From a virus, in the IMG/VR virus record IMGVR_UViG_3300009085_000027, positions 1 to 64,000 of that record: DNA of 64,000 nt, one strand, 5' to 3'. Shown in pieces: positions 12,901 through 58,203 of the stretch; position 1 is the first letter of the stretch, and the number at the start of each line of letters is the position of its first letter. The notes beneath the pieces were generated by a model. The model made no database searches. It had not been told where the DNA came from and was given only the letters and a program-made list of their open reading frames with translations. Made by a program: the position numbers and the translations under genes.

Positions 12901-13141
12901 TCTCTTTGGTGTCAACGACCTCGATGGTCCCCAGGACTGGTACAGCCCAGGACTTACCCTCCAGCCGGGCCTTGGCCTGACCCTTGATGTCATCCGTGCC
13001 CAGGTGATCATCTACAGTAAGTCCGCTTACGCGAACCTCGAATCGACCAGACCGATCTTTGATCGGAAAGGTCCCACTGATCTGTGTGAGGAGTTGTTCC
13101 TTGAGCTCCTCGAACTGGGCTTTTGGGTCGGAGGTGAGCAC
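6923..13141 (-). CDS. Fused beta-beta' DNA-directed RNA polymerase, 2072 aa
   Basis: One polypeptide holds both large subunits of a bacterial-type RNA polymerase. The beta part (about 1-1025) shows the fork and rifampicin-pocket region (FMQNDSAGRSTMSARHMAQA, 505-524), TPESN (400-404), GSNHEDGIVISES (641-653), VGSKLSTRHSAKGIV (781-795) and a C-terminal GGHNGAQSLGSLGIYA block (936-951). The beta' part shows NVPVIPPIFRP (1177-1187), RPLLMKRDPVLHQYGL (1362-1377) and the catalytic loop NADIDGDT with Asp1403, 1405 and 1407. It also has a trigger-loop and bridge-helix region (1628-1720) and the second zinc site Cys1718, 1779, 1786 and 1789. The N-terminal beta' zinc ribbon is missing: GLFDPHI runs almost directly into WGHIRLHEPMP. 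No alpha, omega or sigma gene was found here. The GTG start at 13141 has no Shine-Dalgarno sequence and lies 6 bases after a -10 box. Confidence 0.96.
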   Translation of the reverse strand: MLTSDPKAQFEELKEQLLTQISGTFPIKDRSGRFEVRVSGLTVDDHLGTDDIKGQAKARLEGKSWAVPVLGTIEVVDTKENKTVVSRPNALIAKIPKLTRHYSYIMGGQEKSIANQWRLRPGAYVKATEKPGEYEAQFQLAKGRSFDVQLDESGYIHMKVGSRKIPLYSVLSTMGVTDEAMKKAWGESTFHASKSKASVDKNLRSLYEVWRKEAPASTADLRNETHAIFESTKLDPEVAHANLGVRTSQVNAALLFEASKKLLDVSAGRKDPDPIDSLRYKELWSAKDHFMERIAQASPEITRRVQQALSKPTVQRRLASGDRQVLRDVFMPDLIQRPLNHVFTTSLTSVGKQTNPLTMISDNNLVTITGPGGIQNQHALSKSNTALDPSHLGFLDPVYTPESNTGVNTHKAFGVTVKDRKPHIRLYNLRTGKLEDVDAARASVSSVILPDQVVWKGGKPTPRGKTTRMSDGHGQIRDDLPWGDAHYVMPSATQVFTVETNLVPFMQNDSAGRSTMSARHMAQAISITGREAPKVQVEAGAGRTFEDLVGSGFLARKSPEAGVVVSVKPGEVVIRGKSGTHTVDLYDHYPTNHSKGELHSTPLVKPGDKVKAGEIVADNNYTKGGKLALGTNLRVAYIANGSNHEDGIVISESAAKKLSSEHLHKPSMLVTDNHTVDKKSFIRSKGTVFGLDKLNKIGDDGIVRVGTKVHPGDPLVLALNEDTRLIATGPRAAAKIGKRLRERYDNASMVWDSDHVGEVVRAQNVGGQIVVHVKTLEPIQVGSKLSTRHSAKGIVASILPDKEMPHDAESKHVEILINPVSVPGRINPGQILETAAGRIAEKTGKAYVVKNFQGGVDYLKKLQGELKSHGLKDTEALYDPKTGRKLGDITVGPHYVFQLEHQIDKKTHVRSGGPSFPALGTPKLHYDANTQIPRGGGHNGAQSLGSLGIYAALASGLHDNLKEMQTLKSDQSQAHAVWAALTNGAAVLPKPQIPFVYKKFEAMLTAMGTTVKNEGGTVRIIPRTDAETLALSRGEIKRPTRTLRGKDDRPEPGGLFDPHITGGSEGGTHWGHIRLHEPMPNPIHARAISRVLGIQEADISDIIEGKKKLPGGQYGGRGFREALSKINVDKELKDAKDALKDPKIKEAALEKAHFKYHALRTLKELGVKPADAWTIQNVPVIPPIFRPQTTKPDGTINNNPLNALYRRLGVTNESLKHGEKIPFNATLDAQAGLYQELRNLFGTTPKGKKALDLDMRGTREDRSKKLPGILHMLSGEQPKDGFFQDKIIAKKQDYTSRATITVDPDLGVDEVGVPKKIAAELYRPFIVSRLIRSGVPGDKAQIMVSQKAPLAIKALEQEIKNRPLLMKRDPVLHQYGLVGQNVKLTDDPAVKLSPLVLPPLNADIDGDTVALMVPLTHAAVEETRRIVPSQRIISESSGDVLYAPSNESALALYRMSVPRGAAKGKAFKTKDEAEKAFKESRVQLNETIHIQGVGDTTLGRARVAAVVPEKYRTRILTDLKAPFDKKFQAEILHDTAKSQPKHFVELADNLSRLGFQMAYESGHTVTLKDLEPLRDKRDQIVAAAQKKVNPLMAQGKTDEVTQHWLDATRKLHDTYSTHFANHPTNVSDMAVSGIKAKREQYQGLVMAPMLVEDHLGRPSKVPITKSFAEGIDLGGYFLQAAGARRALIQKTDSVREPGYMSKLLVQANIDQPITGADCGTPQGMLMPIKNKDVVDRHLAAPLKLGAREVPAGTVVTPDLLAHAEKAKVDRILVRSPLKCRMPHGVCSKCMGVHPSGGDYHMGENVGIIAAQALGERAAQLMLRQTHGGGIVSTKGTGMDEFSDVHRLFAASKRSREDAAVAPSTGVVSSVEKTRQGTWNIYIDKKKNPLVSRQRTLDHVKPGYSFSKGEVLTHGEPNIHDLLSTKGLDAVQSHMVDRIGGIYGREGVLRRHAELAVRTATSVVRVQDPGAHDSYVRGDFVTKPVLDEINRTVLKGKKPIEYESHLIPASMIPLRSQPDWMGRLQGERITQSVLTAIQHGHTSTPGGRHPIPGLAIGVAAGRAYGTAQDKPHG

Positions 13142-13793: not shown

Positions 13794-14930
13794 ATGTATA
13801 ACTACTCCCAAACCAAAGAACTTGTTCGACGCGAGCTACTGGCCCAAAACGCGGCTGTGGTGGCCAGGTCTTCTCAGGCCCTCAACATCCCACTCCTCCT
13901 GGGTCCTGTGGGTGGTGGCAAGACCAGTATCGCTCGGGGATTCGCTATCGAGTTCGGGCTCCAGCTCTGCGCCATCAACTCGGGAGAGAACTCCGATGCC
14001 ACGGACCTGAGTGGTGTCCCGGTCCCGTCTAGAATCGTGTCGAAGGAAGACAAGATCCCCTACATGCAATGGGTCTTGAACCGCTACGCCGCTACGGCTT
14101 GCTCGGAGCCGGTGTTTCTGTTCTTCGACGACTTGGACAAAGCACCCCCGCCGGTGCAGAGCGCACTACTCGGCATCACAGCCACCCGGATGTTCCGGGA
14201 CCAAAAAATACACCCCGGCACACTCATCATGGGGGCCGGCAACCGCATTGATGACGACATCAATGCGAATGAGATCTCTGAGTCCCTGCGAACCAGGATG
14301 ACCATCATCGAGATGTCACCGGATGTCATCTCATTCTCCAACTACGGTGTCAGCAGCGGAGAAATCCATCCCGCCGTGATTGGCTACCTGCAGTACAAAC
14401 CAGAGCACCTCTACAAGCACGAAACCGGTGTCAATCGATTCCCCTGCCCCCGTGGGTGGTGGGAAGTGTCCCAGCAGTTCAGGCTCTTTCCAGATGCTGA
14501 GGAAGACCTCTTCAGCAATGGAGCCAAGGACAACTGGAAAGGTATCGTTGACCGCAAGTGTGGTTCCCACATCGGCAATGACTTCTGGGCCTGGTACCAG
14601 GTCATCTCCAAGGTCGATATCAAGGGGATCCTCTCCGGGTCTTCTCGGCTTCAACAGGGCTCGGACAATGACCGCAGGATGTCGCAGTTCGCGGCGATCT
14701 TCGCCATCTCACAGGAGCTCAACCTGCGTGGGGTGAAGGCCGAGTACATCGGGCTGCCCACATTCGTCACGGACCTAGATCCTGAGATGCGGGTAGCGTT
14801 TGTCGTGCAGATCTCTCAGAAGGTGAGGGTCAGCATCTCCACGATGTTCCCCGCCGCAGCCAACACCATGATGGCTCAGATCGTTCAGTCACAGAACGGG
14901 AAGAGTCGTCTCCAAGGGGCCACCCCATGA
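13794..14930 (+). CDS. MoxR-like AAA+ ATPase
   Basis: This 378-aa AAA+ ATPase of the MoxR/RavA type would couple ATP hydrolysis to remodelling of a target protein or complex. It shows Walker A GPVGGGKT (37-44), a helix and loop with DATDLSGVPVP (68-78), Walker B VFLFFDDLDKA (107-117), sensor 1 AGN (148-150) and a probable arginine finger in SLRTRM (164-169). Its stop overlaps the ATG of the next gene (ATGA at 14927), which encodes a VWA-type protein, the usual MoxR partner. Known MoxR-VWA pairs act as chaperones that insert cofactors or mature complexes. The target here is unknown. Confidence 0.85.
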   Translation: MYNYSQTKELVRRELLAQNAAVVARSSQALNIPLLLGPVGGGKTSIARGFAIEFGLQLCAINSGENSDATDLSGVPVPSRIVSKEDKIPYMQWVLNRYAATACSEPVFLFFDDLDKAPPPVQSALLGITATRMFRDQKIHPGTLIMGAGNRIDDDINANEISESLRTRMTIIEMSPDVISFSNYGVSSGEIHPAVIGYLQYKPEHLYKHETGVNRFPCPRGWWEVSQQFRLFPDAEEDLFSNGAKDNWKGIVDRKCGSHIGNDFWAWYQVISKVDIKGILSGSSRLQQGSDNDRRMSQFAAIFAISQELNLRGVKAEYIGLPTFVTDLDPEMRVAFVVQISQKVRVSISTMFPAAANTMMAQIVQSQNGKSRLQGATP

Positions 14931-29306: not shown

Positions 29307-29418
29307 CCCCACTCCAGGTGGGGAATGGCAACCATCACCACACCATGTGGTGGGTGACGGTTGTCTCCATTGCACCCCACCACGGGTCCCCGTAAAACCG
29401 TCGACCCAGCGGAGAGAC
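29307..29418 (+). promoter_or_regulatory. Structured leader upstream of the helicase-primase-polymerase genes
   Basis: The 112-base gap contains CCCCAC/GTGGGG (29307-29312 with 29318-29323). It also contains a longer stem of about 15 pairs, 29329-29345 with 29348-29363, with one mismatch and one bulge. The 3' arm of that stem (TGGTGGGTG) can instead pair with CACCCCACCAC at about 29372-29382, so two folds compete. No T run follows. GGAGAG at 29411 is the ribosome binding site for the next gene. Confidence 0.5.
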
Positions 29419-30927
29419 ATGCACCATATCGAAATCCGACTGCTGACCACCATGCTGCATCGCGGTGACTTCGCACCACTCATACAGGGTGACATAGCCG
29501 CCGAACACTTCGAGTCCGATCTTGGTAAGATCCTCTTTGGATTCATATCAGGATACAGTCAGCAAACCGACAAGGTCGCTAGGTACCCATCTCTGGCGGT
29601 GGTTCGTAGTCGCTTCGATCATATCGAGCTTCCAGAACCAGACCCAGGTGACACTGTTGAGTCCTTGTTGCACGAGACGCTCCTCACCCGCACCAAGTCG
29701 GAGCTACGCAAGATAGCTACGGACCTGCAGTCCGTGGCACTGAGCTCGGACAACCCCAGGGACTCACTACCTGAGATCTTGGGCGCTCTGAAACGAATCT
29801 CGGACAAGGGACAGAGAAGCCGCCATCTGTCCCTGGCCGAAGCCTACCCCACCATCCTGGAGAACTACGCCACCGGAGAGATCCTTCCAGACGGTATTCC
29901 GTACCCCTGGGAGTCTTTGAACAAGGCCACGAAGGGAATGCACCGCAAGGAGTTCTACGTCTTCGCCGGGAGGCCTAAATCCAGGAAGACCTTCATCGCT
30001 TTGTGCATCGCGGTTCACGCGATGAAGAACAGCCACGCCAGGATCTTGGTGTTCACCCCCGAGATGCCAAGAATGCAGGTGTTGCTCCGCGTAATCGCGT
30101 TCCTCAGCGAGGTTCACTACTTCGAGCTGAAGAACGGGAAGCTGAGCGGCGCAGAGGAGATGATGCTCATCGAGCAGGCCAGGACCTACGCGATGATGTC
30201 GTCGGAGACCGAGAATGACTATCAGATCCGACTGAACCGAAGTCTCGGACTCCCCTCCGGAATCATACCCTCCATCGACGTGGTGGAGAGTACCGGACGC
30301 ACCGTGTCATGGATGGAATCGCAGATCGAGATGTATAGACCCGACATTGTCATCTGCGACTCCTTCTACCGCCAAGCACCCGAGGGCACCAGGAAAAGCG
30401 ATGCAGACTGGAAGGCCGTCACCTACATCTCAAGAGCCCTAAAAGATCTTGCGATGTCGACGAATACGTGCATCCTTGGGACCCACCAGATGAACCGTGG
30501 GGCCGAGGGTCAGATCGGCACACTCTCCAACATGGCCCTGGCGGACGCCATCGGGCAGGACGCAGACGTCATCTACCGCGTCATCACACAGAACTCCCAG
30601 GGAGCGGGTAGGTCAGCACTCGTAATCCTGGGTGGTCGTGAGGTGTCCATTGATGGGGTCTTCATCAACAACGAGCCATGCTTCGATTTCACTGAGATTG
30701 GAGCGATCACGAATAAGGCCGCTATCGTGAAGTGGCTCGAAGAGGATGACAACGCCGCTGCTGAGGAGGCCGCCAAAGAACTCCTGCACCGACGCGGTGG
30801 GCCATCCGGGGGCAAGAAGGGGGCAGCGAAGAAGAAGGATGAGACGTACAGCAAGGCCTCGGGCAACGTCAATGCAAAGAAAGCTGAGCTGGGTAATGCA
30901 CAGACCGCAATCGACAGCGCGACGTAG
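29419..30927 (+). CDS. DnaB-like replicative helicase
   Basis: This 502-aa RecA-fold helicase unwinds DNA at the fork and works with the primase encoded next. The start is the ATG at 29419 behind GGAGAG. A DnaB-type N-terminal helical domain (1-150) leads to the helicase domain with FAGRPKSRKTFIAL (182-195), which keeps the Lys-Thr of Walker A but not the usual Gly-x-Gly. A Walker B-like PDIVICDSFY lies near residue 330, followed by an LGTHQMNRGAE switch region. The C-terminus is a Lys/Gly/Ala-rich tail (GGPSGGKKGAAKKKDETYSK). The primase start lies two bases after the stop. Confidence 0.85.
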   Translation: MHHIEIRLLTTMLHRGDFAPLIQGDIAAEHFESDLGKILFGFISGYSQQTDKVARYPSLAVVRSRFDHIELPEPDPGDTVESLLHETLLTRTKSELRKIATDLQSVALSSDNPRDSLPEILGALKRISDKGQRSRHLSLAEAYPTILENYATGEILPDGIPYPWESLNKATKGMHRKEFYVFAGRPKSRKTFIALCIAVHAMKNSHARILVFTPEMPRMQVLLRVIAFLSEVHYFELKNGKLSGAEEMMLIEQARTYAMMSSETENDYQIRLNRSLGLPSGIIPSIDVVESTGRTVSWMESQIEMYRPDIVICDSFYRQAPEGTRKSDADWKAVTYISRALKDLAMSTNTCILGTHQMNRGAEGQIGTLSNMALADAIGQDADVIYRVITQNSQGAGRSALVILGGREVSIDGVFINNEPCFDFTEIGAITNKAAIVKWLEEDDNAAAEEAAKELLHRRGGPSGGKKGAAKKKDETYSKASGNVNAKKAELGNAQTAIDSAT

Positions 30928-30929
30928 TC

Positions 30930-32027
30930 ATGTCCAGAGACATAGCTGATACGATCTTTGAGCTTTCACCCGGTCTACGTGACGGGGCGAAGGTCGCATC
31001 GAACCACATCATGATCCGATGCCCGTTCCACAACATGGGACAGGAGCGGACACCCTCAATGTCGGTGAGCACGGAGAAGCCCGTGTTCAACTGCTTTGGC
31101 TGCGGAGAGTCCGGGCACGTATCCAGGCTCCTCCGCCATTTCGGGGCTGGCAAAGAGTCCATCGACGCCATCCTGACGTCAGCAGGTCTCAACAACCCTG
31201 GAGTGGTCAAGACCGGTGGCAGGGTCGCGGCGACGTACATCGCCAACGTCAACCCCTTCCGCGGTGAGTTCGTCCTCGACGAAGAGATCCTTGACGAGTA
31301 TCGAATGGCCCCTGGCGTGCTCCTATCCGCGGGGTTCACCAAGGACACGCTGAGGCACTTCGAGGTCGGGTTCGATCGAGCCAATCTGAGGATCACGTTC
31401 CCACTGAGGAACATCTTTGGGGAGCTCGTCGGTATCTCCGGCCGTGCAGTCCTCGACGTGGAACCGAAGTACAAGATCTATGTGACGGAGCTGATACGAC
31501 GCAGGGACATGCACGTACCAGAGACCTACACCATGGAGTCGGTGAAAAAGGCGTTGCTCTGGCACGCCCATGTAGTGCGACCTTTCTTGCTCAGCACCGA
31601 TGAGCCTCTGGTGGTTACCGAGGGGTTCAAGGCTTGTATGTGGGTCTGGCAAACATCCTATCAGGCTGTGTCCGCCCTCATCGGTGCGTACCTCACAGAT
31701 CTGCACGCAGAACTAATCGCAACATCAGTACGGCAGGTGATCCTCTTCCTCGACAACAACGGTGCCGGTATCCGTGGGACGTACCACGCCGGCAACCGAC
31801 TTACGAAGGTCGGTGTAGAGGTTCGTGTCGCGTCGTATCCCGATGACAGGGAGCAGCCCGACAACCTAAAGCCCGAAGAAGTACAACTCGCAATCGAAAA
31901 CGCTGAAAACTATCTGACCTGGAGAGAACGAAATGGGAAACGATTCATACATGAAGATGCGCTCCGGAGCGCTGGGCGGGGACATCGAAGGGCAGTTCAA
32001 GAAGCGGGCAGCAAACGTCGGTGGTAG
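30930..32027 (+). CDS. DnaG-type DNA primase
   Basis: The protein makes RNA primers for the fork. The N-terminal zinc finger is CPFH (31-34) and CFGC (55-58), the CHC2 pattern. The central region (about 110-180) matches the primase N-subdomain (LRITFPLRNIFGELVGISGR). The Toprim domain shows VTEGFKACMW with Glu231 and ILFLDNNGAG with Asp275. The second Asp of the usual DxD is Asn here. At 365 aa it is shorter than bacterial DnaG and lacks a clear helicase-binding domain. Its last 95 bases overlap the next gene in another frame, so the C-terminal basic tail may be dispensable. Confidence 0.85.
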   Translation: MSRDIADTIFELSPGLRDGAKVASNHIMIRCPFHNMGQERTPSMSVSTEKPVFNCFGCGESGHVSRLLRHFGAGKESIDAILTSAGLNNPGVVKTGGRVAATYIANVNPFRGEFVLDEEILDEYRMAPGVLLSAGFTKDTLRHFEVGFDRANLRITFPLRNIFGELVGISGRAVLDVEPKYKIYVTELIRRRDMHVPETYTMESVKKALLWHAHVVRPFLLSTDEPLVVTEGFKACMWVWQTSYQAVSALIGAYLTDLHAELIATSVRQVILFLDNNGAGIRGTYHAGNRLTKVGVEVRVASYPDDREQPDNLKPEEVQLAIENAENYLTWRERNGKRFIHEDALRSAGRGHRRAVQEAGSKRRW

Positions 32028-33108
32028 GGGCGGCCCACAACGGCAGATCCCGGAAGGCACCTTCGAGAGCTTCTACCCGTCTGAGACTCCGTGCTGGGTC
32101 CACATCTCTCCGACCAACTTCACGTACGATATTTACGACCGTGACAGCAAAGAGGTCGTAGAGGCCACCACGACCTGGCTCGAGACTATGGGTCACTACG
32201 TGCCGAAGAAGAAGCAGACCCTGGCCTGTTCCTCCGGGGCTCACATGGACAAGCCCTGCTATGGCTGCGCGGTGCAGCGGGCACACTACGAACGCATGGA
32301 CCGAATCCAAGAGCAGAAGGGATTCCGCCCAGAGGACAAGCCCCCAATCGGCAAGGGTTCGCGCTTCTCCTTCGCCGTCACGGTGATGGAGAAGTTCTAC
32401 ACCACCCCCGTCCTGGACAAGGACGGGAACCACCGCAAGACCCGGGCCGGTGCTCCGATCATGCGCCACACCCCGGCTCCACTCGTCAAAGAGAAGGACC
32501 GCACTGGCCCCACGGAGTTCGGTCGCCGCATGCACTGGACCATGGGCATGGAGAATCTCACCCAGCTGATTTCCGCAGCAGGACCCAAGCTGAAGCACCA
32601 CTGCATGAACTGTGCAGATGAGATGTGTGCTGCGGCTCTGACCTGCCCGAACTGTGAATCCGTGGTCAAGCTCCCCGAGGTTATCAGCGGAGAAGATCTC
32701 AGAATCGCTGTCTCCAACGAGCGGACCTGCTCAACATGTAAGGAGTCCTCGATCTTCGTCCCCAAGTACATGTGCGAGTGTGGCAAACCCAAGTCTGGTG
32801 GGAGCCTTCTAGGCTTCGACCTGCGAATCAAGAAGACCCCGGTCGGTGAGAAGTCCAGCATCATCGAGATCGTGGGTGTTCGGATGCCGACCCACCTGAA
32901 CAAAGCCAACCCCCAGGATGTCAGGGACCGGCTCACCAGCATGGTCATGGAGCCCCTCAATCTGCTGGAGATTTTCTCTCCAGCATCTCTGGCTATGCAG
33001 AAGGCTTGGATCGGAGACGACATCCTCCAGGGGATCAGTCCTGAGCCACGCAAGACCAAGGCTACCGAAACGGAGTCGTACTCCGACTCTGTCAACTACA
33101 ACGAGTAA
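31933..33108 (+). CDS. Multi-zinc-ribbon replication-region protein, 391 aa
   Basis: GGAGAG lies 6 bases before the ATG, inside the primase end. Cysteine clusters occur at about 96-113 (CSSGAHMDKPCYGC). There are three further CxxC pairs at about 222-240 (CMNC, CPNC) and CSTC/CEC near 260-280. The middle is an OB-like beta-rich region (FSFAVTVMEKFYTTPVLDKD) and the C-terminus is acidic and Ser/Thr-rich. Position between primase and polymerase, plus an acidic tail, makes a single-stranded DNA-binding protein a reasonable guess. This resembles the logic of gp32, which also binds zinc and ends in an acidic tail. No homology to gp32 is claimed. Confidence 0.75.
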   Translation: MGNDSYMKMRSGALGGDIEGQFKKRAANVGGRGGPQRQIPEGTFESFYPSETPCWVHISPTNFTYDIYDRDSKEVVEATTTWLETMGHYVPKKKQTLACSSGAHMDKPCYGCAVQRAHYERMDRIQEQKGFRPEDKPPIGKGSRFSFAVTVMEKFYTTPVLDKDGNHRKTRAGAPIMRHTPAPLVKEKDRTGPTEFGRRMHWTMGMENLTQLISAAGPKLKHHCMNCADEMCAAALTCPNCESVVKLPEVISGEDLRIAVSNERTCSTCKESSIFVPKYMCECGKPKSGGSLLGFDLRIKKTPVGEKSSIIEIVGVRMPTHLNKANPQDVRDRLTSMVMEPLNLLEIFSPASLAMQKAWIGDDILQGISPEPRKTKATETESYSDSVNYNE

Positions 33109-33111
33109 CAC

Positions 33112-35118
33112 ATGCCGCGACTCCGACTGCTTCCGCCGGTAACGGCGGTGACTCAGCCGGAAGAGGCCACCCCGGTCATCGAGTACTTGATGAACCGGGG
33201 TGGTCAGATCGCAATCGATACAGAGACCACGGGACTTCACCGCACGAAGTCCCGTGTTCTCTTTTGGTCCATGGCCACAGAGGACAAACGTTTCTTCCTC
33301 TCGGTCGATCGACTCAATCAGTTCGATTGCCTCTTCCAGCGAAAAGACATCAGATGGCTCCTGACGAACGCCAAGTTCGACAAGCACATGTTGAAGAACA
33401 TGGGCTACGACCTCAGAGGTGAGGCCTGGGACATCATCGACATGGATGCCATGGACGATGACACACGCCCCCACGGGTTGAAGGAGCAGTCCAAGTACGC
33501 CTACGGCGCCAACTGGGGTGAGTTCAAGGATCTGTTCCTGGATCCCTACATGGTCTCTGAGGTCATGGGGATGGACGCTCTCATGCTGTCCGGATTCAAG
33601 AAGCTGGGGATCGGGGACAAGCTCCTGGAGGTCTACGACCAGTGCCCGGAGATTGTGGAGGAGTACGCCAGCTGCGACGCCTTCTTCACGTACATGCGCG
33701 CTGCGGACCTGATGAAGCAGCTCGACTCACTGTACTTGCCCACGGAGTACTTCCCCGAGCTACGCACCCTCCTCGACTACTACCGCATCATTGAGATGCC
33801 GCTGACCCAGACGCTGTGGAAGATGGAGCGTGTGGGGATCAATGTTGATGTCGACTACGTCAAGAAGATCGATGGCCCCATGCGAGACGGTATCCGGGCT
33901 GCTGAGAGCCGGGTACACGACGCAGCTGGCAAGAAGTTCAACGTCCGGTCCACCGATGAACTCAGGGGAATCTTGTTCGGTGAGAAGTCTGGATTCGGGT
34001 TCAGGCCTGTGTCCTACACCACGGGCAAGGGCAAGCCCGTTGCGAGTACGGATGAGAGCACACTGAGCATCTTGATGATGCGGACCCCAAAGGACTCTCC
34101 AGCGGGTAAGTTCCTCAAGGCGCTCGTCGATCACCGACATCTTGCCCAGCTGCACAGCACATACATCAAGAAGCTGCTCGGTCGTCTGGACGAGCACGAC
34201 ACCAGTCTGAGATGCAAGTTCAACCAGTCGGTGGCCCGCACCGGCCGGTTGAGTTCATCAGACCCCAACATGCAAAACATCCCAGCCCGTAATGACCCCT
34301 ACAAGATCCGTGGGGCTTTTACGGCGCGCAACGGCAAGGAACTCATCGACTACGACTACCCCCAGATTGAGTTCCGCATCGCTGCGGTCTTGTCCGGGGA
34401 AGAAGGCATGATGGAGTCCATCCGTAAGGGATGGGACGTACACAACGCCAACACCGTTAGGATGTACAAGTCCGACTCTGACGTCACCTACGAAGCCGTA
34501 GTTGAATCCCGAAGGAAGAAGGACGCCAAAGAGTCACTGACTGAGATAGATCGCAAGCTACTGCGGTTCCGAGACGGCGCCAAGACATCTGGTCTGGGAT
34601 GTCTCTACGGTGAAGGTTCCGGAAAGATGGCTCACGACCTGGGCTGTAGCAAAGACGAGGCCCAGGAGCTGATCAACACCTTCTTCACCGCGAATAAGAT
34701 GATCCATGCGTCGATTCAATCGATGCACAGCTTCGCCCACGAGACAGAGATGACCTACACCATGCTAGGTCGTATCCGTCGCCTCCACCGCATCAACTCC
34801 AGCCTTGGAGGTTTGGTCGCGGAGGAACGTAGACAGTCCTACAACACCCTGATCCAAGGCAGCGGCGCAGAGATGCTGAAACTGGCCATGCTTCAGATCG
34901 ATAATGACCCCGACTTCCAAGCCCTTGGTGGTCGACTTCTACTCACAGTGCATGACGAGCTCGTCGCTGAAGCCCCAAAGGACACAGCAGCAGAAGTCAG
35001 TCGCATCATGAAAGCCAAGATGAGCGATCCCTACAACTGGGGGCCAATCGTAATGACGTACCCCGTACCCGTAGATCCCGAAGGGGCGCGGGGCCACCGA
35101 TGGAGCGATCTCAAGTGA
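33112..35118 (+). CDS. Family A DNA polymerase with 3'-5' exonuclease
   Basis: This 668-aa replicative polymerase of the Pol I family lacks the 5'-3' exonuclease domain. The proofreading domain keeps DTE (36-38), Asp90 (NAKFDKHM) and Tyr185/Asp189 (EYASCDAFF). The polymerase domain has ARTGRLSSSDPNMQNIP (375-391) and motif A DYDYPQIEFR (Asp413/415). It also has motif B RDGAKTSGLGCLYG (487-500) and motif C HDE (614-616). The residue equivalent to E. coli Phe762 is Leu495. Motif A has Pro where Ser is usual (DYSQIE). It starts three bases after the zinc-ribbon gene, and its end overlaps the recombinase start. Confidence 0.95.
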   Translation: MPRLRLLPPVTAVTQPEEATPVIEYLMNRGGQIAIDTETTGLHRTKSRVLFWSMATEDKRFFLSVDRLNQFDCLFQRKDIRWLLTNAKFDKHMLKNMGYDLRGEAWDIIDMDAMDDDTRPHGLKEQSKYAYGANWGEFKDLFLDPYMVSEVMGMDALMLSGFKKLGIGDKLLEVYDQCPEIVEEYASCDAFFTYMRAADLMKQLDSLYLPTEYFPELRTLLDYYRIIEMPLTQTLWKMERVGINVDVDYVKKIDGPMRDGIRAAESRVHDAAGKKFNVRSTDELRGILFGEKSGFGFRPVSYTTGKGKPVASTDESTLSILMMRTPKDSPAGKFLKALVDHRHLAQLHSTYIKKLLGRLDEHDTSLRCKFNQSVARTGRLSSSDPNMQNIPARNDPYKIRGAFTARNGKELIDYDYPQIEFRIAAVLSGEEGMMESIRKGWDVHNANTVRMYKSDSDVTYEAVVESRRKKDAKESLTEIDRKLLRFRDGAKTSGLGCLYGEGSGKMAHDLGCSKDEAQELINTFFTANKMIHASIQSMHSFAHETEMTYTMLGRIRRLHRINSSLGGLVAEERRQSYNTLIQGSGAEMLKLAMLQIDNDPDFQALGGRLLLTVHDELVAEAPKDTAAEVSRIMKAKMSDPYNWGPIVMTYPVPVDPEGARGHRWSDLK

Positions 35119-36392
35119 AGAAGAAAACCAAGGCTGTGAAGTCGAAACCGGCGAAGACGAAAGCCGTGAAGACCGTGGAATCCAAACCCACGACTAGAGA
35201 ACCCTCGGGTGGGGAGGACAGGGCTGGTGTACTCGGTAACCTGATCCGAGGGATCAATGCCAAGTACAAGGCCACTGTCATCTCCCTAGCCAAGGACACC
35301 AGCTCCTCGTACATCCTGCGTAGACCAACGGGGATCACGAGTCTGGACATCAAGCTAGGGGGTGGATTCCCGGCCAGCGCGGTGAGCGTCATTGTTGGAC
35401 CCGACGGGGCTGGCAAGGACTACATCGTGTGGAGAACTGCGGCCGAGGTCCAAAAGATCTATGGTGAGTCCTTTCGCATGGCGATCTTGCTGACAGAGTT
35501 CAAGCTCGACAAGCCCTTCATGCGAGACATCTGTGGCTTGAAAGTGGCACTGACACCGTCCGAGATCGAAGAGCTCGATGAGTCCAGGACGAGGCTCGGT
35601 GTTGACATCCTTACGGATGAGGAGCGCGAGAGTCTCACCACGGAGATTGGCGAGATCGGGATCATTGAGGGTCAGACCGCGGAGGACGGGTTCGACATCC
35701 TCATCGACATCGTGGAGAAGAATGTCTGCCAACTCGTGGTGGTCAACTCCATCGGGTTCATGCAGACCGCAGCGAAGGAAGCCACGGATAGCTTCAACGA
35801 GTTCCCGCAGCAACGGAACGAGGCAATGCTTCTCACCAAGGTCATGCCGAAGCTCAGCATGATCCTGAACCGATCCAGTCATGTCGGGGAGAGGAACGAG
35901 ACAGCCATCATCCTCATCAACCAGATGAGGGCTAAGACAGGCGGTGCCCCAGTACGTGGCCGCCCAGTGATGGAACGCGACACCTATCAACCCGGTTCAG
36001 GCGCCTGGGCCCTGAAGCATGGCAAAGCCCTCGAGCTCTGCATCCACAAGGGGAAGAAGCACACCGATGTGGAGACCAACGTCGTAATGGGCCGAGAAGT
36101 TCCATGGCAGATAACGAAGGGAAAGCTGGGTACTCATGACGGTCTCAGCGGCAGCTTCGACTTCTTCTACGACGGGGGTGTCGACATCATCGGGGACCTC
36201 TACAACACCGCGGTGTCTGCAGGGCTGTTCGTAGTGGGTGGTGCCTGGATCACATATGAGCACCCCGAGTTTGGGTTCAAGGCTCAGGGAAAGGCCGGGG
36301 CCAGGCGCCGGATGATAGAGAGCCCTGAGCTCTGCGCCCACATCCGTGACGCCTGTTTCCGGGCGGCGCAGACCGTGTACCGGCACAAGTGA
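35115..36392 (+). CDS. RecA/UvsX-like recombinase
   Basis: This strand-exchange ATPase for recombination-dependent replication begins with a Lys-rich N-terminal tail. The core has PTGITSLDIKLGGGFP followed by a P-loop GPDGAGKDY, in which Asp replaces the usual Thr/Ser. A Walker B-like CQLVVVNSIGF and an ETAIILINQMRAKTGG loop (L2-type) complete the pattern, and a C-terminal basic region (AQGKAGARRRMIESP) follows. The GTG at 35115 is preferred because it overlaps the polymerase stop (GTGA) with GGAG nine bases upstream. An in-frame ATG at 35100 is the alternative. Confidence 0.85.
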   Translation: MKKKTKAVKSKPAKTKAVKTVESKPTTREPSGGEDRAGVLGNLIRGINAKYKATVISLAKDTSSSYILRRPTGITSLDIKLGGGFPASAVSVIVGPDGAGKDYIVWRTAAEVQKIYGESFRMAILLTEFKLDKPFMRDICGLKVALTPSEIEELDESRTRLGVDILTDEERESLTTEIGEIGIIEGQTAEDGFDILIDIVEKNVCQLVVVNSIGFMQTAAKEATDSFNEFPQQRNEAMLLTKVMPKLSMILNRSSHVGERNETAIILINQMRAKTGGAPVRGRPVMERDTYQPGSGAWALKHGKALELCIHKGKKHTDVETNVVMGREVPWQITKGKLGTHDGLSGSFDFFYDGGVDIIGDLYNTAVSAGLFVVGGAWITYEHPEFGFKAQGKAGARRRMIESPELCAHIRDACFRAAQTVYRHK

Positions 36393-36949
36393 AGACCACG
36401 AAGCAGCGTAAACGCCGGTCCCGCCGTGTGGAGAAGACAATCGCCCAAGACCTGGGTGGTCGTCTGACCTTCAACAGTGGGGCCGGCGACGAGAAGGCGG
36501 ACTGCAGGGTGCCACATCGCTATAAGGGGTCGGCCCAAGGCGTTGTGGAAGCCACTGCCATCGCTATCCGGGTGGAGAGCAAGACCACGGAGAAGTCGAA
36601 GTACACCATGATGGCTAGGGACTGGGCGGACCTCTGGAGGTCAGCTTCCCTTCAAGGTGAGATCCCTGTCTTCCACATCCAACTCGATACACACCGCGAC
36701 CCCTTGGACCTTGCCTTCGTGACGTCAGCCCTCATGGCGGAGTTCACCGAGGACATAGCCCCCAGTGATGGGAGCTCAAGGGCCATAGTCATCAACCGGG
36801 AACGCGGCGAATCCCTGATCCCGAGCCAGACCGTAAAGATCCCCCACCACAGGTTTGATCTGGTCGGTGATGGAGGCCGACACTACAGTGTTTGTCTCTG
36901 TCTCTACAGTGTCCTGAGATCACACCTCCACAACCTGGGTCTACCATGA
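36389..36949 (+). CDS. PD-(D/E)XK nuclease, Holliday-junction resolvase-like
   Basis: A basic N-terminus (TTKQRKRRSRRVEKTIAQDL) is followed by GGRLTFNSGAGDEKADCRVP and then IRVESKTTEKSKYTM. This is the E...GG...SG...D...E-x-K arrangement of Hjc-like and related restriction-fold nucleases, with Asp38 and Glu-x-Lys (about 63-65) as the metal site. It would resolve branched intermediates from RecA-driven recombination. The GTG start overlaps the recombinase stop. It is one of three nuclease genes in a row with partly similar jobs. Confidence 0.7.
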   Translation: MKTTKQRKRRSRRVEKTIAQDLGGRLTFNSGAGDEKADCRVPHRYKGSAQGVVEATAIAIRVESKTTEKSKYTMMARDWADLWRSASLQGEIPVFHIQLDTHRDPLDLAFVTSALMAEFTEDIAPSDGSSRAIVINRERGESLIPSQTVKIPHHRFDLVGDGGRHYSVCLCLYSVLRSHLHNLGLP

Positions 36950-37779
36950 AGAGTGCAACGAGCATCAAGCACATCGCCGACCTCGGGAAGGAAGACGCCG
37001 TAGACCTGGAGAGCCTCTACGTCGAGACGCTGGCGGAGGAAGTGAAGAGTGACCGACAGGGTGTGTTCCACCCCAGCGCGATTGGGATGTGTGGTAGGCG
37101 CAACGTCTACGAGTACATCCGGGCCCCCTACATCAAGACCATCGACCCCGACAGTCTTGAGGTGTTCGCCATGGGGCACGCCGTACACGACATCATCCAG
37201 ACCCGGCTGGAGAATCTCACCGCCCCGGCTCGGCACGGGATCACGTACAGCTTCAGGAAAGAGGTCGGATTCGACCCCAAGACTGACAAGCTCTTCCTCA
37301 ACTACGGGATCGGTGGAACCACCGACGGCATCCTGACCTTCTCCGGGCCAGGATGGGAGCAGCGCGGAATCCTCGAGGCCAAGTCGATCAAGGACAAGCT
37401 CTTCTCCGAACTCACCGGACCAAAAGATGACCACCTCATGCAGGCGCATCTCTACGCCTACAGGTTCGACTGCCCCTTCATCTGGGTCTGGTACTACAAC
37501 AAGAACACGTCGGAGCGTCTGATCTACGCCAGGGTATTCGATCCTGAGATCTTACACGCCGCCCTGGACCGGTACGTCGGTTGGATGGGTCACATCAAGG
37601 ACGGAACGCTGCCAGATCGGGAAGAGAGTTGGTACATGTGCCCGAGGTGTGAGTACCGAGACATCTGCAAGCCCCCGACATTGGATGCCATCAAGGGCAA
37701 GGCCGCTGGGCGAGCCAAAGCCAAGACCATGAACACACTGCGCAAGACCGGTATGAGGAGGCTCGTATGCCTAGATTGA
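36946..37779 (+). CDS. Cas4/RecB-like PD-(D/E)XK exonuclease with Fe-S cysteines
   Basis: The 277-aa protein has MCGRRNVYEY near residue 51, then GGTTDGILTF and GILEAKSIKD (Asp and Glu-x-Lys of the nuclease site), a conserved QAHLYAYRF helix, and CPRCEYRDIC near 240-249. The four cysteines (one early, three late) are the hallmark of Cas4/AddB-type 4Fe-4S nucleases. It would resect DNA ends to produce single strands for the recombinase. There is no CRISPR array nearby. ATGA overlap with the preceding nuclease supports one operon. Confidence 0.8.
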   Translation: MKSATSIKHIADLGKEDAVDLESLYVETLAEEVKSDRQGVFHPSAIGMCGRRNVYEYIRAPYIKTIDPDSLEVFAMGHAVHDIIQTRLENLTAPARHGITYSFRKEVGFDPKTDKLFLNYGIGGTTDGILTFSGPGWEQRGILEAKSIKDKLFSELTGPKDDHLMQAHLYAYRFDCPFIWVWYYNKNTSERLIYARVFDPEILHAALDRYVGWMGHIKDGTLPDREESWYMCPRCEYRDICKPPTLDAIKGKAAGRAKAKTMNTLRKTGMRRLVCLD

Positions 37780-38408
37780 ACCTAAGTGGGGTCCCGATAC
37801 TTGAGGCCGGTATAGACCGGGACATCAAGATCACAGCCGAGTCCATCATCGATGACGTCAGGAAGCAGACCAGGGCTCTTGGGCTCTTGCCCTACCCAAA
37901 GCCTGACACTGCTCCCGACACCTTGGTTGGGATCGAACTGGAGAGCTTGCCGAATCATGCCCTGGGTCAGCTCTACATCCGGTACACCGCCCATGCCCAG
38001 TACGTCGGTGGGCAGCTCGCTGAGTTGGAGGCGGCGTATCGCCTGGCCTGCACCAACTTGAAGCACATCGATGCCAAGTTGAGGTCCAAGCTCTTCGCCA
38101 GTGCTGTGCCCAAGGCAGAGGTGGCGTCACGGGCAAAGGACGACGCCTTGTACCAAGAGTTCGATACCGAGGTGGTTCGTCTGTTCGCGATGAAGACCTT
38201 GGTCACGGCACACTACAGGGCCTACGACAAGCAGGCTGCGGCTCTGAGCCGCATCATCTCGCTGCGTGAGCTGGAGTTCGAGCAGAACCTTCGGGGGTCG
38301 AACATCGATGCGGCAAAGAACAGGCGTGGTAAGGGCAAGGCCACACGCCCCAGGATGGACATCGACGGTAGCCCCTTGGAGTTCCGCCGGCGAGAGGGGG
38401 AAGACTGA
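37767..38408 (+). CDS. Hypothetical helical protein, 213 aa
   Basis: Long polar helices dominate (QYVGGQLAELEAAYRLACTN; KHIDAKLRSKLFASAVPKAE; KQAAALSRIISLRELEFEQN), ending in a basic tail (AAKNRRGKGKATRPRMD). The position between the exonuclease and RusA suggests a recombination mediator or annealing accessory. No sequence family was recognised. It overlaps the upstream gene by 13 bases and the downstream one by a single base (TGATG). Confidence 0.7.
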   Translation: MPRLNLSGVPILEAGIDRDIKITAESIIDDVRKQTRALGLLPYPKPDTAPDTLVGIELESLPNHALGQLYIRYTAHAQYVGGQLAELEAAYRLACTNLKHIDAKLRSKLFASAVPKAEVASRAKDDALYQEFDTEVVRLFAMKTLVTAHYRAYDKQAAALSRIISLRELEFEQNLRGSNIDAAKNRRGKGKATRPRMDIDGSPLEFRRREGED

Positions 38409-38914
38409 TGACCCCGCTCTTCTCCTTCACCGCCGAGTTGTCGGACCCCGCACCGATTAGTGTCAACGAGATGTACTCCACCGGTAATGGCGGCAGGCGG
38501 TTTCTGACCTCCGCGGGTCGCCACTACAAGGACCGAATGAAAGAGGTCGTGTCAGAAGCCACGATGTCTTTGAGATGGAAAGACGCCGTCGATGCTGTCT
38601 ATAAGGGTGGGGCCTGGGTTTCTCTGTCCGTAGTCCTGGAGGTAGATCGACTCGCAAACGGGTCGTGGAAGCCGGGTGGTGGCAAGACCACCTCCGGAGA
38701 TCTCCGAAGTCCGTATCGAAAGATGGACGGGTCAAACTACATCAAGATCGTTGAAGACGCCGTCGTCTTGGGCACAGGGATTGACGACTCTGCTCATCTC
38801 GATGTTCGGGTCCGTAAGACCCAAGCCACGGGAAAGCCCCGAGTCGTTGTGGAGTACAAAATCTATGGGACGAGCCACGGAACTGGTCAGCCTGAACAAG
38901 GACAAATCGGATAA
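38408..38914 (+). CDS. RusA-type Holliday junction resolvase
   Basis: The 168-aa protein has the RusA pattern: PISVNEMYSTGNGGRRFLTS near the N-terminus, then RKMDGSNYIKIVEDAVV with the metal-binding Asp, and GIDDSAHLDVRVRKT with paired Asp. RusA dimers cut four-way junctions symmetrically. Here it would clear branches before packaging. The C-terminal tail after VVEYKIYG is low in structure and overlaps the next small gene by 50 bases. Confidence 0.82.
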   Translation: MTPLFSFTAELSDPAPISVNEMYSTGNGGRRFLTSAGRHYKDRMKEVVSEATMSLRWKDAVDAVYKGGAWVSLSVVLEVDRLANGSWKPGGGKTTSGDLRSPYRKMDGSNYIKIVEDAVVLGTGIDDSAHLDVRVRKTQATGKPRVVVEYKIYGTSHGTGQPEQGQIG

Positions 38915-39083
38915 CCCGAACTACGCGGTGTGCTACGCCCGAGGCGCTGTGTTCAAAACCGAAGGCCACTTCTTTAGGGTGGAAAAGGGTCGCCGTAATC
39001 TGGTAAAGCGCGAGCTCTGCGCATCCCAGTACTACGGGGCGCGGTGCAGGATCTGTCCCAATCGCGTAGAGGCCCCGTGTTGA
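38865..39083 (+). CDS. Small Cys-rich protein, 72 aa
   Basis: Starting from the ATG at 38865 within the RusA tail, the frame encodes a compact protein with cysteines in YAVCYARGAVF and RELCASQYYGARCRICPNRV, ending in C. The C-x8-C-x2-C pattern is a probable zinc knuckle. There is no strong ribosome binding site, but its end overlaps the next gene's GTG start. It may be a small nucleic-acid-binding protein. Function unknown. Confidence 0.55.
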   Translation: MGRATELVSLNKDKSDNPNYAVCYARGAVFKTEGHFFRVEKGRRNLVKRELCASQYYGARCRICPNRVEAPC

Positions 39084-39403
39084 ACCTTGACGATCTCAAC
39101 ACCACAGAGCTAGTTGCTCTAGCCCGGGAGAACGACCCTGATGCACATCGCGGTCTGGGCCGTGACGTGCTGTTCACCCTAATCACAGACACCTACGAAG
39201 ACACACTACCTGAACGAAAAGTTGACAAACTCAGACTGAAGATCATGGGCTACATCCTGGACCACTGGTCCCAGGTGAACCCTCTTCTGTCCTGCCCGGC
39301 AAAAACCAAGAACCCAAGAGCGTGCTTCCGCTGCACTGACGTGCAGGTCGTGGAGTGCGCGTTCGTAAACCCCGCTGCATTCGACAAGACCCAAGGAGAC
39401 TGA
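39077..39403 (+). CDS. Hypothetical protein with SAP-like helix pair, 108 aa
   Basis: The GTG at 39077 lies 4 bases after TAGAGG and overlaps the previous stop. The N-terminal part (NLDDLNTTELVALARENDPD then RGLGRDVLFTLI) resembles the helix-loop-helix of SAP or Rho-N-type DNA/RNA-binding modules. A central helix follows, then a C-terminal cysteine group (SCPAKTKNPRACFRCTDVQV, VEC) that could bind zinc. No enzyme motif. Assignment as SAP-like is tentative. Confidence 0.6.
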   Translation: MLNLDDLNTTELVALARENDPDAHRGLGRDVLFTLITDTYEDTLPERKVDKLRLKIMGYILDHWSQVNPLLSCPAKTKNPRACFRCTDVQVVECAFVNPAAFDKTQGD

Positions 39404-39404
39404 A

Positions 39405-39881
39405 ATGACACTTCCCGCAGGAATCAAGGCTCGTACCCGTGAAGAGTGGACTTCGATCGCGAACAAAGAGGAGCCCATCGAGCGCAAGCCCATCATCGAC
39501 GCCTTGAAGGCGCTGGGCATCGACCCGATGGACTACCTCGCCATGGACAATGACGAGCGCGTCGAGCGCGTCATGGCGGCTCAGAGCGAGGGTGAGGAGG
39601 AGGCACCGAAGAAGTCCAAGGCCAAGGCCTCGGCTTCATCAGCCTCGGACGAGCCAGTGACCAATGGTAAGTCCTCGGCTGGCAAGGACCTCGCTGGTCT
39701 CCAGGCCACGGTGAACCACCTCCGCGCCGAGGTCGAGGAGCTCAGCGCGCTGGTTCGCGACGCCCACTTCCTGATCCGAGTCCTGGTTCAATCCGACGCC
39801 CGCCTGAAGGGCAACGCCCGGGACGAGGACCTCCAGGGAGCGATGTACGGCAAGCTCGCGGTGGCCCGGGGAAACGGCTAG
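39405..39881 (+). CDS. 158-aa coiled-coil protein, frameshift donor
   Basis: AAGGAG at 39393 precedes the ATG. The N-terminal domain (about 1-60) is helical. A Lys/Ala/Ser-rich linker (KKSKAKASASSASD) follows, then a coiled-coil segment (LAGLQATVNHLRAEVEELSA; LVRDAHFLIRVLVQSDARLK). The last codons are CGG GGA AAC GGC TAG. The G GGA AAC heptamer two codons before the stop is a classic -1 slippery site, and a long open -1 frame continues past the stop (see the next entries). Function unknown; its position at the end of the recombination genes is the only clue. Confidence 0.75.
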   Translation: MTLPAGIKARTREEWTSIANKEEPIERKPIIDALKALGIDPMDYLAMDNDERVERVMAAQSEGEEEAPKKSKAKASASSASDEPVTNGKSSAGKDLAGLQATVNHLRAEVEELSALVRDAHFLIRVLVQSDARLKGNARDEDLQGAMYGKLAVARGNG

Positions 39882-39906
39882 CCCGGACTGACCAGCTTGG
39901 GGTCCG
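39869..39906 (+). promoter_or_regulatory. Candidate -1 programmed frameshift site with stimulatory hairpin
   Basis: The heptamer GGGAAAC (39869-39875) is in phase as G GGA AAC with the 158-aa frame. After an 8-base spacer, CGGAC (39884-39888) pairs with GTCCG (39902-39906), with an extra CCA/TGG pairing inside the loop. Heptamer, spacer length and hairpin follow the known design. Lambda G/GT uses the related GGGAAAG heptamer. Confidence 0.55.
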
Positions 39907-40084
39907 TCCACTTCCTGAAGATCATGTGTTCGACATCGACATCGATAAGCTCCACAAGATGTCGATGTCAGAACTCTTCGATCTCATGGGGCAACTGGGC
40001 CTCAGCACAGCGGGTCTAGAGGACCGGGCATCGGCATTGGACAAGCTCATGTCCGATGCCACCACAGTTGATATAGTGGAGTAG
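39875..40084 (+). CDS. -1 frame extension of the 158-aa protein, or separate 52-aa gene
   Basis: Immediately past the zero-frame stop, the -1 frame is open for 69 codons and reads as normal protein: RLARTDQLGVRPLPEDHVFD, a short acidic stretch, KLHKMSMSELFDLMGQLGL and a final helical segment ALDKLMSDATTVDIVE. The codons upstream of the first in-frame GTG (39926) already look coding, which favours frameshift fusion (total about 226 aa) over independent initiation. The GTG has no good ribosome binding site. If translated alone it would give 52 aa. It ends one base before the terminator stem. Confidence 0.55.
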   Translation, partial: RLARTDQLGVRPLPEDHVFDIDIDKLHKMSMSELFDLMGQLGLSTAGLEDRASALDKLMSDATTVDIVE

Positions 40085-40115
40085 GAGGGGGCGGGTGATC
40101 CGCCCCCTCTCTTTT
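40085..40115 (+). terminator. Strong rho-independent terminator
   Basis: GAGGGGGCGG (40085-40094) pairs perfectly with CCGCCCCCTC (40100-40109) around GTGAT, followed by TCTTTT. It ends the long replication operon directly after the -1 frame stop codon. Confidence 0.9.
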
Positions 40116-40672: not shown

Positions 40673-41017
40673 ATGCCAACTGTGTTGTTAGTAGAGGACG
40701 ATGACTTCAAGGCCAGGGCTGTGACCCGAGCCTTGAAGCACCACGAGGTCGTTAGGGTGGGGGACTTCGAGTCCGCCCTGGTAGTGATGGACTCTGTGTC
40801 CATCTACGCCATCGTCACGGACTGGGACTTCCCGTCTCGCCCAGGTGGCAACCCCGTTCATGGGGCCGGTTCCGGCGTGGTGCGCAGAGCCCAAGAGCTC
40901 GGCATCAGGGTCGCCGTGTTCTCCGGGCACCCCAAACCTCCGGAGTTCCCAGGTGCCTGGCTACCACAAGGGAACAAGGTCCACGAGGAACTGTGCGAAG
41001 CCGTAGACGGTCTCTGA
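40673..41017 (+). CDS. Stand-alone response-regulator receiver domain
   Basis: The 114-aa protein is a single REC domain: VLLVEDDDFKARAVTRAL gives the acidic pocket (Glu8-Asp11). VTDWDFP gives the phosphoacceptor region (Asp50 or Asp52), AVFSG supplies the Ser84 switch residue and Lys102 is a candidate for the conserved lysine. There is no output domain. A phosphorelay or decoy role towards host two-component systems is possible, since no kinase is encoded here. It has a very strong ribosome binding site partly within a hairpin, and its own terminator downstream. Confidence 0.8.
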   Translation: MPTVLLVEDDDFKARAVTRALKHHEVVRVGDFESALVVMDSVSIYAIVTDWDFPSRPGGNPVHGAGSGVVRRAQELGIRVAVFSGHPKPPEFPGAWLPQGNKVHEELCEAVDGL

Positions 41018-56954: not shown

Positions 56955-57401
56955 CTATTCCTCCTTGATGGAGTTGTTCAGCTTCTGGATATCGTCGCGC
57001 TTGAGCCGGGTCGCGGCGTCGCGAATCTGTTTGGAGTCCAGATCAAGGAGCATGCAGATATGCTTGAATGTGTAGCGACCATCCTCATCCATGGATTCTT
57101 CGCCATCCCAGAACAACCAACCCGCGGCATCCTCGGCCAGGCCGTGGCGCTCGGGGTCCTTCTTGGGGTCGCAGTCCCGGTATAGGGCGAAGTCCCAGAC
57201 CGCTCGTCTGACTATGGCGACGAGCAGGCGTTGGGTTGGGGTTGGTTGGGGTCCTCGATCTTTGGACCAGTCGACGTCTACAGAGACACTATGAGACGAC
57301 GACGGATACGACCCCTCCAGCGATGCCGGTGTCTGGGATGCGTACGATCGATGTGTCTTTGCGCGTGACACGGAGAGTCGTTGAGCCTGCAGAAAGTCCA
57401 T
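56955..57401 (-). CDS. Hypothetical protein, about 149 aa or shorter, start uncertain
   Basis: The well-formed part begins near TQRLLVAIVRRAVWDFALYR and ends with YTFKHICMLLDLDSKQIRDA, a helical domain with Trp-rich AGWLFWDGEE in the middle. Upstream the frame overlaps the 304-aa gene by about 113 bases. The possible starts are ATG 57401, GTG 57371 and TTG 57440, none with a ribosome binding site. From the end of that gene (57289) to the folded domain there is no usual start codon in frame, so initiation is unusual or the overlap is real. Function unknown. Confidence 0.55.
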   Translation of the reverse strand: MDFLQAQRLSVSRAKTHRSYASQTPASLEGSYPSSSHSVSVDVDWSKDRGPQPTPTQRLLVAIVRRAVWDFALYRDCDPKKDPERHGLAEDAAGWLFWDGEESMDEDGRYTFKHICMLLDLDSKQIRDAATRLKRDDIQKLNNSIKEE

Positions 57402-58203
57402 GGAGTGTGAGAGTACCTGTCTCGACCGTAACTGTCGCAATGCTGGTGTCGTCGACAGCGTACTTCACATCCTCAGTCGCTGTCCCGGTTAGTGTGCGGA
57501 AATCAGACGCCACGAGCTCTGGGACCAGGACAAGGCTACCACCAACACCCAGTGTCCAGGGACCTACTGGGTCGAACTCTACAACAGCAACAACGGGAAA
57601 CAACAAATCATTGAGGTTGACTGCGCTTCGGTCTGGGACGGCGATCTCGCGTTGAACGTTCTCCTGGCTCTCTACAGTGGCTAGGTACTTCCCGAATCGG
57701 AAGAGATCAACACTGGCGTACCCGGTATTGTCCGTACGGATCGCAACTCGTTCGCCGAGAACTCCGATCCCATCGACAATCAAGGGGTTGAAGCACGGGA
57801 TGAGATGGATGTCGATCCCGCGGCGGGGGATGCCATTGGGCCCGTAGATGTAGCCGGAAGCTCGACACAACCTGGGGTTGGTGGCTTGGGGCAAAACAAA
57901 CGTCGTTGCTGTGACCAGGAAGTTGTTGGCCCCTGTTGGTGCCAACGCCGCTGGGGAGTAGACCTCGATGTACTGTGGCGAAACCACAGATCCACCCGAG
58001 ACGTAGAACCTGAGTTGGTAAGACACCGGGGAGGCATCGCCGTTGAGGGTGAACATCACCTTGCCTGGCAGATACGACCCCGTGGTTCCCTCCGTGATGA
58101 ACGTGGTCCCGGTGTCATCGAAGACCCTGACTACGACGCCATCCACTGGCTGCGGGGTCAGTTGATCGTCCTGGGCGCTTACCACTACGGTTTCGAGGGC
58201 CAT
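57289..58203 (-). CDS. Tail/baseplate protein with regulatory-like and Ig-like domains, 304 aa
   Basis: The N-terminus reads as a beta-sandwich (VVVSAQDDQLTPQPVDGVVV) found in carboxypeptidase-regulatory-like folds. The middle has ASGYIYGPNGIPRRGIDIHL, a typical linker of that fold, and YASVDLFRFGKYLATVESQE. The C-terminus (VGGSLVLVPELVASDFRTLT followed by GTLTLHGLSAGSTTLRVTRK) looks like a bacterial Ig-like (Big) domain. It has no motifs for catalysis. Such domains usually form the tail surface or bind carbohydrates. Confidence 0.72.
   Translation of the reverse strand: MALETVVVSAQDDQLTPQPVDGVVVRVFDDTGTTFITEGTTGSYLPGKVMFTLNGDASPVSYQLRFYVSGGSVVSPQYIEVYSPAALAPTGANNFLVTATTFVLPQATNPRLCRASGYIYGPNGIPRRGIDIHLIPCFNPLIVDGIGVLGERVAIRTDNTGYASVDLFRFGKYLATVESQENVQREIAVPDRSAVNLNDLLFPVVAVVEFDPVGPWTLGVGGSLVLVPELVASDFRTLTGTATEDVKYAVDDTSIATVTVETGTLTLHGLSAGSTTLRVTRKDTSIVRIPDTGIAGGVVSVVVS

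Follow-up and report, generated by a model that had tools for sequence, protein, structure and literature searches.

Does the last gene of a replication and recombination operon in an uncultured phage encode one protein or two? The question is raised by a stretch of 64,000 nucleotides (hereafter the window), which belongs to a 73.9-kb IMG/VR record with very divergent proteins. A gene of 158 codons ends in this window on a potential slippery sequence, and an overlapping reading frame continues beyond its stop codon. The features concerned are the following:

39405-39881 (+): the 0-frame gene, coding for the short product of 158 aa; 46 further viral loci have a homologue in this position
39869-39875 (+): slippery heptamer G_GGA_AAC in the -1 phase; GGGAAAC/A/G occurs in 32 non-redundant loci, the window counted
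39879-39881 (+): 0-frame stop codon TAG, 3 nt past the heptamer; nearly all relatives have 0-15 nt here, and one (L220) has 30 nt
39875-40084 (+): -1 frame extension of 69 codons, ending at TAG (40082-40084), with a SAP/Rho_N-like pattern from about 39935; -1 frame homologues are present in 42 other loci
39885-39909 (+): predicted hairpin GGAC-GACC/GGUC-GUCC with a 1x1 mismatch, a possible stimulator, evaluated by folding against shuffles
39926-39928 (+): GTG, the earliest possible start in the -1 frame, lacking a Shine-Dalgarno sequence; a rival start that is thought to be unused

An earlier note, made from the window alone, had claimed a slippery G GGA AAC just before the stop of the 158-aa gene, and the heptamer is indeed in frame, with the 3′ end of the gene reading ...CGG GGA AAC GGC TAG and a single codon (GGC) separating the site from the stop. 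The coordinates of its -1 frame, open for 69 codons, and of its two products of 158 and about 226 aa are likewise borne out, with the longer product predicted at 157+69 = 226 aa after the slip. Its statement that this frame reads as good protein from the first codon fails, however, as the codon usage of positions 39869-39925 falls at the 0.5th percentile of the coding stretches of this phage, which is non-coding in appearance, and becomes coding (66th percentile) only at 39926. The GC3 of the same codons is low (0.38), and low values are also found in relatives L131, L137 and L141 (0.50), but not in L124 (0.94). The elements of the proposed hairpin, namely CGGAC (39884-39888), GTCCG (39902-39906) and an 8-nt spacer, are present, while the preferred fold differs slightly from the one described and, at -12.2 kcal/mol, is no stronger than shuffled sequences (z +0.5). 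Given the Gly-Asn dipeptide, GGGAAAC would arise by codon choice alone with a probability of about 0.035 per genome. The pattern of heptamer and -1 frame within one window does not exceed chance, and the window alone is undecisive; the significance of the pattern derives from comparison across related loci.

Viral contigs returned no matches to the 158-aa protein, the -1 tail, RecA or the DNA polymerase when each was used as a single-sequence query, and a DNA-level search of phage records was also without a match. An alignment of the terminase led to viral contigs encoding a 43-66% identical terminase, several of which are 150-190 kb long. When the 0-frame body and the tail were queried separately, they were found side by side in six of the terminase-linked records, with the tail in the -1 frame in 6/6. 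The tail matches in these records begin before residue 20, the earliest possible start of the window tail, and GGGAAAC or GGGAAAA is located one or two codons ahead of the stop in each. RecA alignments subsequently yielded two sets, of 43 and 67 loci, together with their flanks, while a RecA search of genome contigs yielded no relatives. Searches by tblastn of 50,697 isolated-phage records, using three body sequences and one -1 tail, gave no match to the gene. Judged by these searches, the carriers of the gene are a large family or deep lineage of uncultured phages.

Copies of the gene were recognised in 47 non-redundant viral loci, the window counted. In 43/47 the tail occupies the -1 frame, where one third would be expected were frames random, and this frame holds 43 of the 44 tails detected. 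The GGGAAAC/A/G heptamer is present in 32 of the 43 loci with a -1 tail, and homologues down to about 15-30% identity retain both heptamer and frame. Counted over ORFs of 100 codons or more in the related loci, GGGAAAN in the -1 phase within the last eight codons is found in 32/4,281, of which 28 are at gene positions identified beforehand (29 such positions) and four elsewhere. Two of the latter four, in L204 and L208, are copies of the frameshift gene that have a shorter tail, so that 30/32 are accounted for by this gene, against two of about 4,250 other ORFs. Similarly, G_GGG_GAR in the last four codons is restricted to six of 4,363 ORFs, all six being copies of the frameshift gene.

Eleven of the 43 loci keep the downstream frame intact while the heptamer is disrupted, a combination that the earlier note had named as evidence against frameshifting. 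Eight of these eleven carry a substitute slippery site: G_GGG_GAA or G_GGG_GAG is located 0-3 nt ahead of the stop in six (L129, L194, L200, L205, L211 and L216), A_AAA_AAA in L193 and G_GGG_GGA in L232. The other three (L183, L188 and L212) have kept the -1 tail with no convincing slippery site. L205 and L211 were candidates for a natural fusion of the body with the tail in one frame, a reading that was dropped, as their tails are in the -1 frame behind G_GGG_GAA; the L194 tail is in the -1 frame behind G_GGG_GAG. In L228 a tail-like domain (14689-14868) follows the TGA of the body in frame 0, an arrangement that may reflect readthrough of the stop, initiation at a separate start or a lost frameshift, while in L181, L184 and L230 the body is present and no tail was detected. 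In the RecA tree, GGGAAAN occurs in four deep, well separated clades. It is therefore probably as old as the lineage, judging from this distribution, and was probably replaced by G_GGG_GAR at least twice.

The tail codons are under purifying selection, with dN < dS in 9/9 pairs where both could be estimated. The comparison of homologues that the earlier note had proposed as a check thus found heptamer and -1 frame conserved and dN < dS in the tail, and its reading of the site as a programmed -1 frameshift is supported by the conservation of site, frame and tail across loci. In a single GC-rich genome the pattern could stem from a chance heptamer, an assembly error or a decaying gene, as coincidences of this kind are not rare there and the hairpin does not reach significance. 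Site, phase and tail are, however, shared by independent contigs from many metagenomes, and these comparative data already contradict such an origin, the probability of which we consider negligible.

The sharp rise in codon usage at 39926 bears on a further possibility, namely that two genes are present and that the downstream frame is translated alone from GTG 39926 into a 52-aa protein, perhaps coupled to termination at 39881. Codon usage in the -1 frame becomes coding exactly at this codon, and the neighbouring genes are closely spaced. Yet the GTG has no Shine-Dalgarno match (-1.0 kcal/mol), whereas strong matches precede the genes at 39405, 40126 and 40673, and both the conserved GVxPLP stretch and the heptamer are located upstream of it. 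In L125, L144, L174, L175, L178 and L180 the earliest ATG, GTG or TTG of the tail is found at codon 29-42, within the conserved domain, and therefore separate initiation cannot make the tail in these relatives. Furthermore, the -1 frame opens just 0-3 codons ahead of the heptamer in eight loci (L130, L131, L133, L144, L175, L178, L180 and L207), which leaves the heptamer as the sole entrance there. Coupling, moreover, does not fix the frame, while 43/44 tails share the -1 frame. A ribosome binding site and start for the downstream frame, the other observation said to speak against frameshifting, are not conserved: the window GTG is without a Shine-Dalgarno sequence and several relatives have their first start inside the domain. 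The candidate of an independent gene from GTG 39926, suggested by codon usage, was dropped as homologues conserve the tail upstream of any start, and we regard separate translation as quite improbable.

The slippery sites are pairs of short homopolymers, with AAAAAAA in L193 and a G run in L232, and could thus be taken for sites of transcriptional rather than ribosomal slippage, as is used by dnaX in some bacteria (PMC3711429). Runs of three to four G and three A are, however, shorter than the homopolymers described for this process (>=9 A in dnaX; PMC3711429), and what is conserved is the codon phase X_XXY_YYZ, for which transcription has no need. Slippage of the RNA polymerase at these short G/A runs is as such highly unlikely, and ribosomal frameshifting is the reading that we follow below.

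A downstream RNA stimulator is weakly favoured when 31 sequences are pooled: the 50 nt from 3 nt past the heptamer are more stably folded than shuffles, with a mean z of -0.73 and a Stouffer value of -4.0, compared with -0.7 and -1.8 for two control stretches. Strong hairpins follow the heptamer in L130, L144 and L137. Upstream of the heptamer, the window has no clear Shine-Dalgarno-like stimulator (-1.7 kcal/mol), while across the relatives such sequences are weakly enriched (p 0.01) and are strongest in L137, L141, L144 and L145.

The earlier note had placed the gene in a recombination operon; its neighbours encode a replication and recombination cluster in which the frameshift gene is last:

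29347-38914 (+): operon encoding a DnaB-like helicase, a primase, an unknown protein of 391 aa, a DNA polymerase, a RecA/UvsX-like recombinase, a Holliday junction resolvase, a Cas4-like exonuclease, an unknown protein of 213 aa and RusA
39044-39403 (+): conserved upstream neighbour of 119 aa with a four-cysteine motif (CPAKTKNPRACFRCTDVQVVEC)
40085-40115 (+): terminator-like inverted repeat GAGGGGGCGG-gtgat-CCGCCCCCTC, then TCTTTT, read from the sequence as the end of the operon

The order of this block through RusA, the small Cys-motif protein and the terminal frameshift gene is kept in about 20 relatives or lineages. The window and most group 1 and group 2 relatives have a terminator-like repeat 3′ of the -1 stop. 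Several additional features can be observed in the immediate surroundings. In L222 (13372-14763) and L220 (3708-4838) the Cys-motif neighbour and the frameshift gene are in one frame with no stop between them, perhaps as a natural fusion. L179 (8022) and L180 (14045) harbor a second GGGAAAA, 9 nt ahead of the stop of the gene immediately upstream (about 127 codons), with a Cys/Arg-rich -1 extension of 77 codons; on this sequence pattern the upstream gene is possibly a second frameshift gene of the operon. In L125 (13564), and also in L126, the RusA-like gene has a CCCAAAG in the -1 phase 6 nt ahead of its stop, with 75 open -1 codons behind it; this site was not seen in relatives and is probably due to chance. 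Directly behind the operon, the window encodes a protein of 114 aa (40673-41017, +) with a weak match to response-regulator receivers, which is conserved in L124 and L127.

The same anatomy and slippery sites are characteristic of tail assembly chaperones, with GGGAAAC used in phage Colossus (PMC3556154) and in HCTV-1 (PMC5009743), and the gene could accordingly be a chaperone of the gpG/gpGT type displaced into the replication operon. The tail of L125 furthermore shows a weak partial match to Phage_TAC_6 (20.1 bits against a cut-off of 23.4, over 23 residues). Against such an assignment, no other tail in the family matches any tail chaperone family, and in about 20 lineages the gene closes the replication cluster, downstream of RusA, with no tape-measure-like gene seen after it. 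A search of 20 relatives for the tape measure families PF10145 and PF20155 gave no match, and the true tail chaperone of these phages could thus not be located. In the window, an Ig-like or major-tail-like protein (57289-58203, -) is followed by a small ORF (56955-57280, -) and an 860-aa protein of unknown kind, and neither a tape measure nor a tail chaperone was recognised here. A 2072-aa ORF (6923-13141, -) was considered as a candidate tape measure and dropped when fused RNA polymerase parts were found in it. It combines a beta-like part (Rpb2 domain 6; E 6e-51) and a beta′-like part (Rpb1 domains 2, 3 and 5, NADIDGD) and is, by these domain matches, a fused one-chain RNA polymerase of the multisubunit type. 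The frameshift gene is not classed as a tail assembly chaperone because it has no adjacent tape measure and no family match above the cut-off, and we consider its origin as a displaced chaperone quite improbable.

The body of the protein comprises an N-terminal helical-looking domain, a low-complexity linker rich in Lys/Ala/Gly/Ser or Pro/Gln, and a helical-looking C-terminal end. No AAA+ family is found among the listed matches of the 158-aa protein and its homologues, and searches against solved structures gave weak matches only. The tail, about 50-80 residues long in the family, carries a PLPxxED or WPGxxLPxAEDLxEV stretch, which in most members is followed by the SAP/Rho_N-like pattern LxxMTxxELxxLAxxLGxxxxGLExRxxAL. 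Tails show weak matches to SAP (PF02037; E 0.002, L124) and Rho_N (PF07498; E 0.016), and in the PDB to CDNF and Rho. All of the SAP and Rho_N matches are below the curated cut-offs (best SAP match: 18.0 bits against 23.9), and the window tail has none. In L204 and L208 roughly the WPG...D stretch is all that is left, an indication that the essential part of the tail lies here.

Taken together, a replication/recombination accessory protein is very probably made in two versions, short and tailed, through programmed -1 ribosomal frameshifting. Conserved site, phase, tail, purifying selection and synteny are read directly from the sequences, whereas slippage at a rate below one, the coexistence of the two isoforms and their role are inferred. 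Most ribosomes would terminate at the TAG and release the 158-aa protein, while a fraction would slip one base back on G_GGA_AAC, with the tRNAs re-pairing with GGG and AAA. The slipped ribosomes would pass the stop in the -1 frame and produce the 226-aa protein, which has a C-terminal domain of approximately 70 residues. The body may oligomerise via its helical part, such that the frameshift would set the number of tail-bearing subunits, and the tail module may dock DNA or a partner such as RecA. By analogy with lambda gpG/gpGT and DnaX gamma/tau, the frameshift might serve as a dosage device, a role that we put forward tentatively and hold to be somewhat short of an even chance. We suggest with the same reserve that this uncultured phage lineage might control a recombination or replication machine by frameshifting, the ratio of tailed to untailed subunits setting its engagement with DNA or RecA.

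The known programmed frameshifts of double-stranded DNA phages are nearly all located in tail or capsid genes, and it is for this reason that annotators and gene finders look for them there. The same device and slippery sites are here fixed in a non-structural gene family, carried by phages whose RecA proteins are just about 30% identical. This represents a new recoding gene family, with a predicted second protein isoform that annotation has missed. The family furthermore provides a natural set of variants at one homologous place (GGGAAAC, GGGAAAA, GGGAAAG, GGGGGAA, GGGGGAG and AAAAAAA) and makes the importance of subunit ratios in viral recombination testable. If the frameshift does control such a ratio, this would be, as far as we know, the first frameshift-set stoichiometry of a viral recombination system.

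Reviews and tools place phage frameshifts in tail chaperones, in capsid and tail extensions and in few other genes (PMC5009743, PMC10885494, PMC3711429), and a full-text search of openly licensed papers found no frameshift in a phage recombination operon. In actinophages the substitute site GGGGGAA is known as 'fivetwo' and accounts for about a thousand annotated frameshifts, for which G:U re-pairing has been given as the explanation (PMC10885494), and has also been proposed for tail genes of phi16 (PMC5506516). The pattern of the tail resembles that of SAP and Rho_N, small helical DNA- or RNA-binding domains, with matches that are below curated cut-offs. As in gene 10 of T3, lactobacillus phage A2 and listeria phages, the frameshift would add a C-terminal domain to a fraction of the protein (PMC5009743); those are structural proteins that acquire Ig-like or other surface domains, whereas the present gene belongs to a non-structural operon and its tail is small and helical. 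With dnaX gamma/tau it shares an association with replication and a -1 frameshift that yields two isoforms differing at the C-terminus (PMC3711429). The dnaX shift, however, gives the shorter product, of an AAA+ clamp loader, while here the shift would give the longer one and no ATPase domain is seen. The closest likeness in anatomy is to lambda gpG/gpGT and its counterparts in tailed phages, in which a -1 slip likewise occurs on a GGGAAAN-type heptamer near the 3′ end of a small gene, and in which an abundant short and a rarer long product are conserved despite low sequence similarity (PMC5009743), the two products of the present gene being predicted from sequence. Unlike these, it is located in a replication/recombination operon with no recognisable adjacent tape measure, has no family match, and carries a tail of just 50-80 residues. 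As such, the mechanism is a known one, while the gene family and its functional setting are new.
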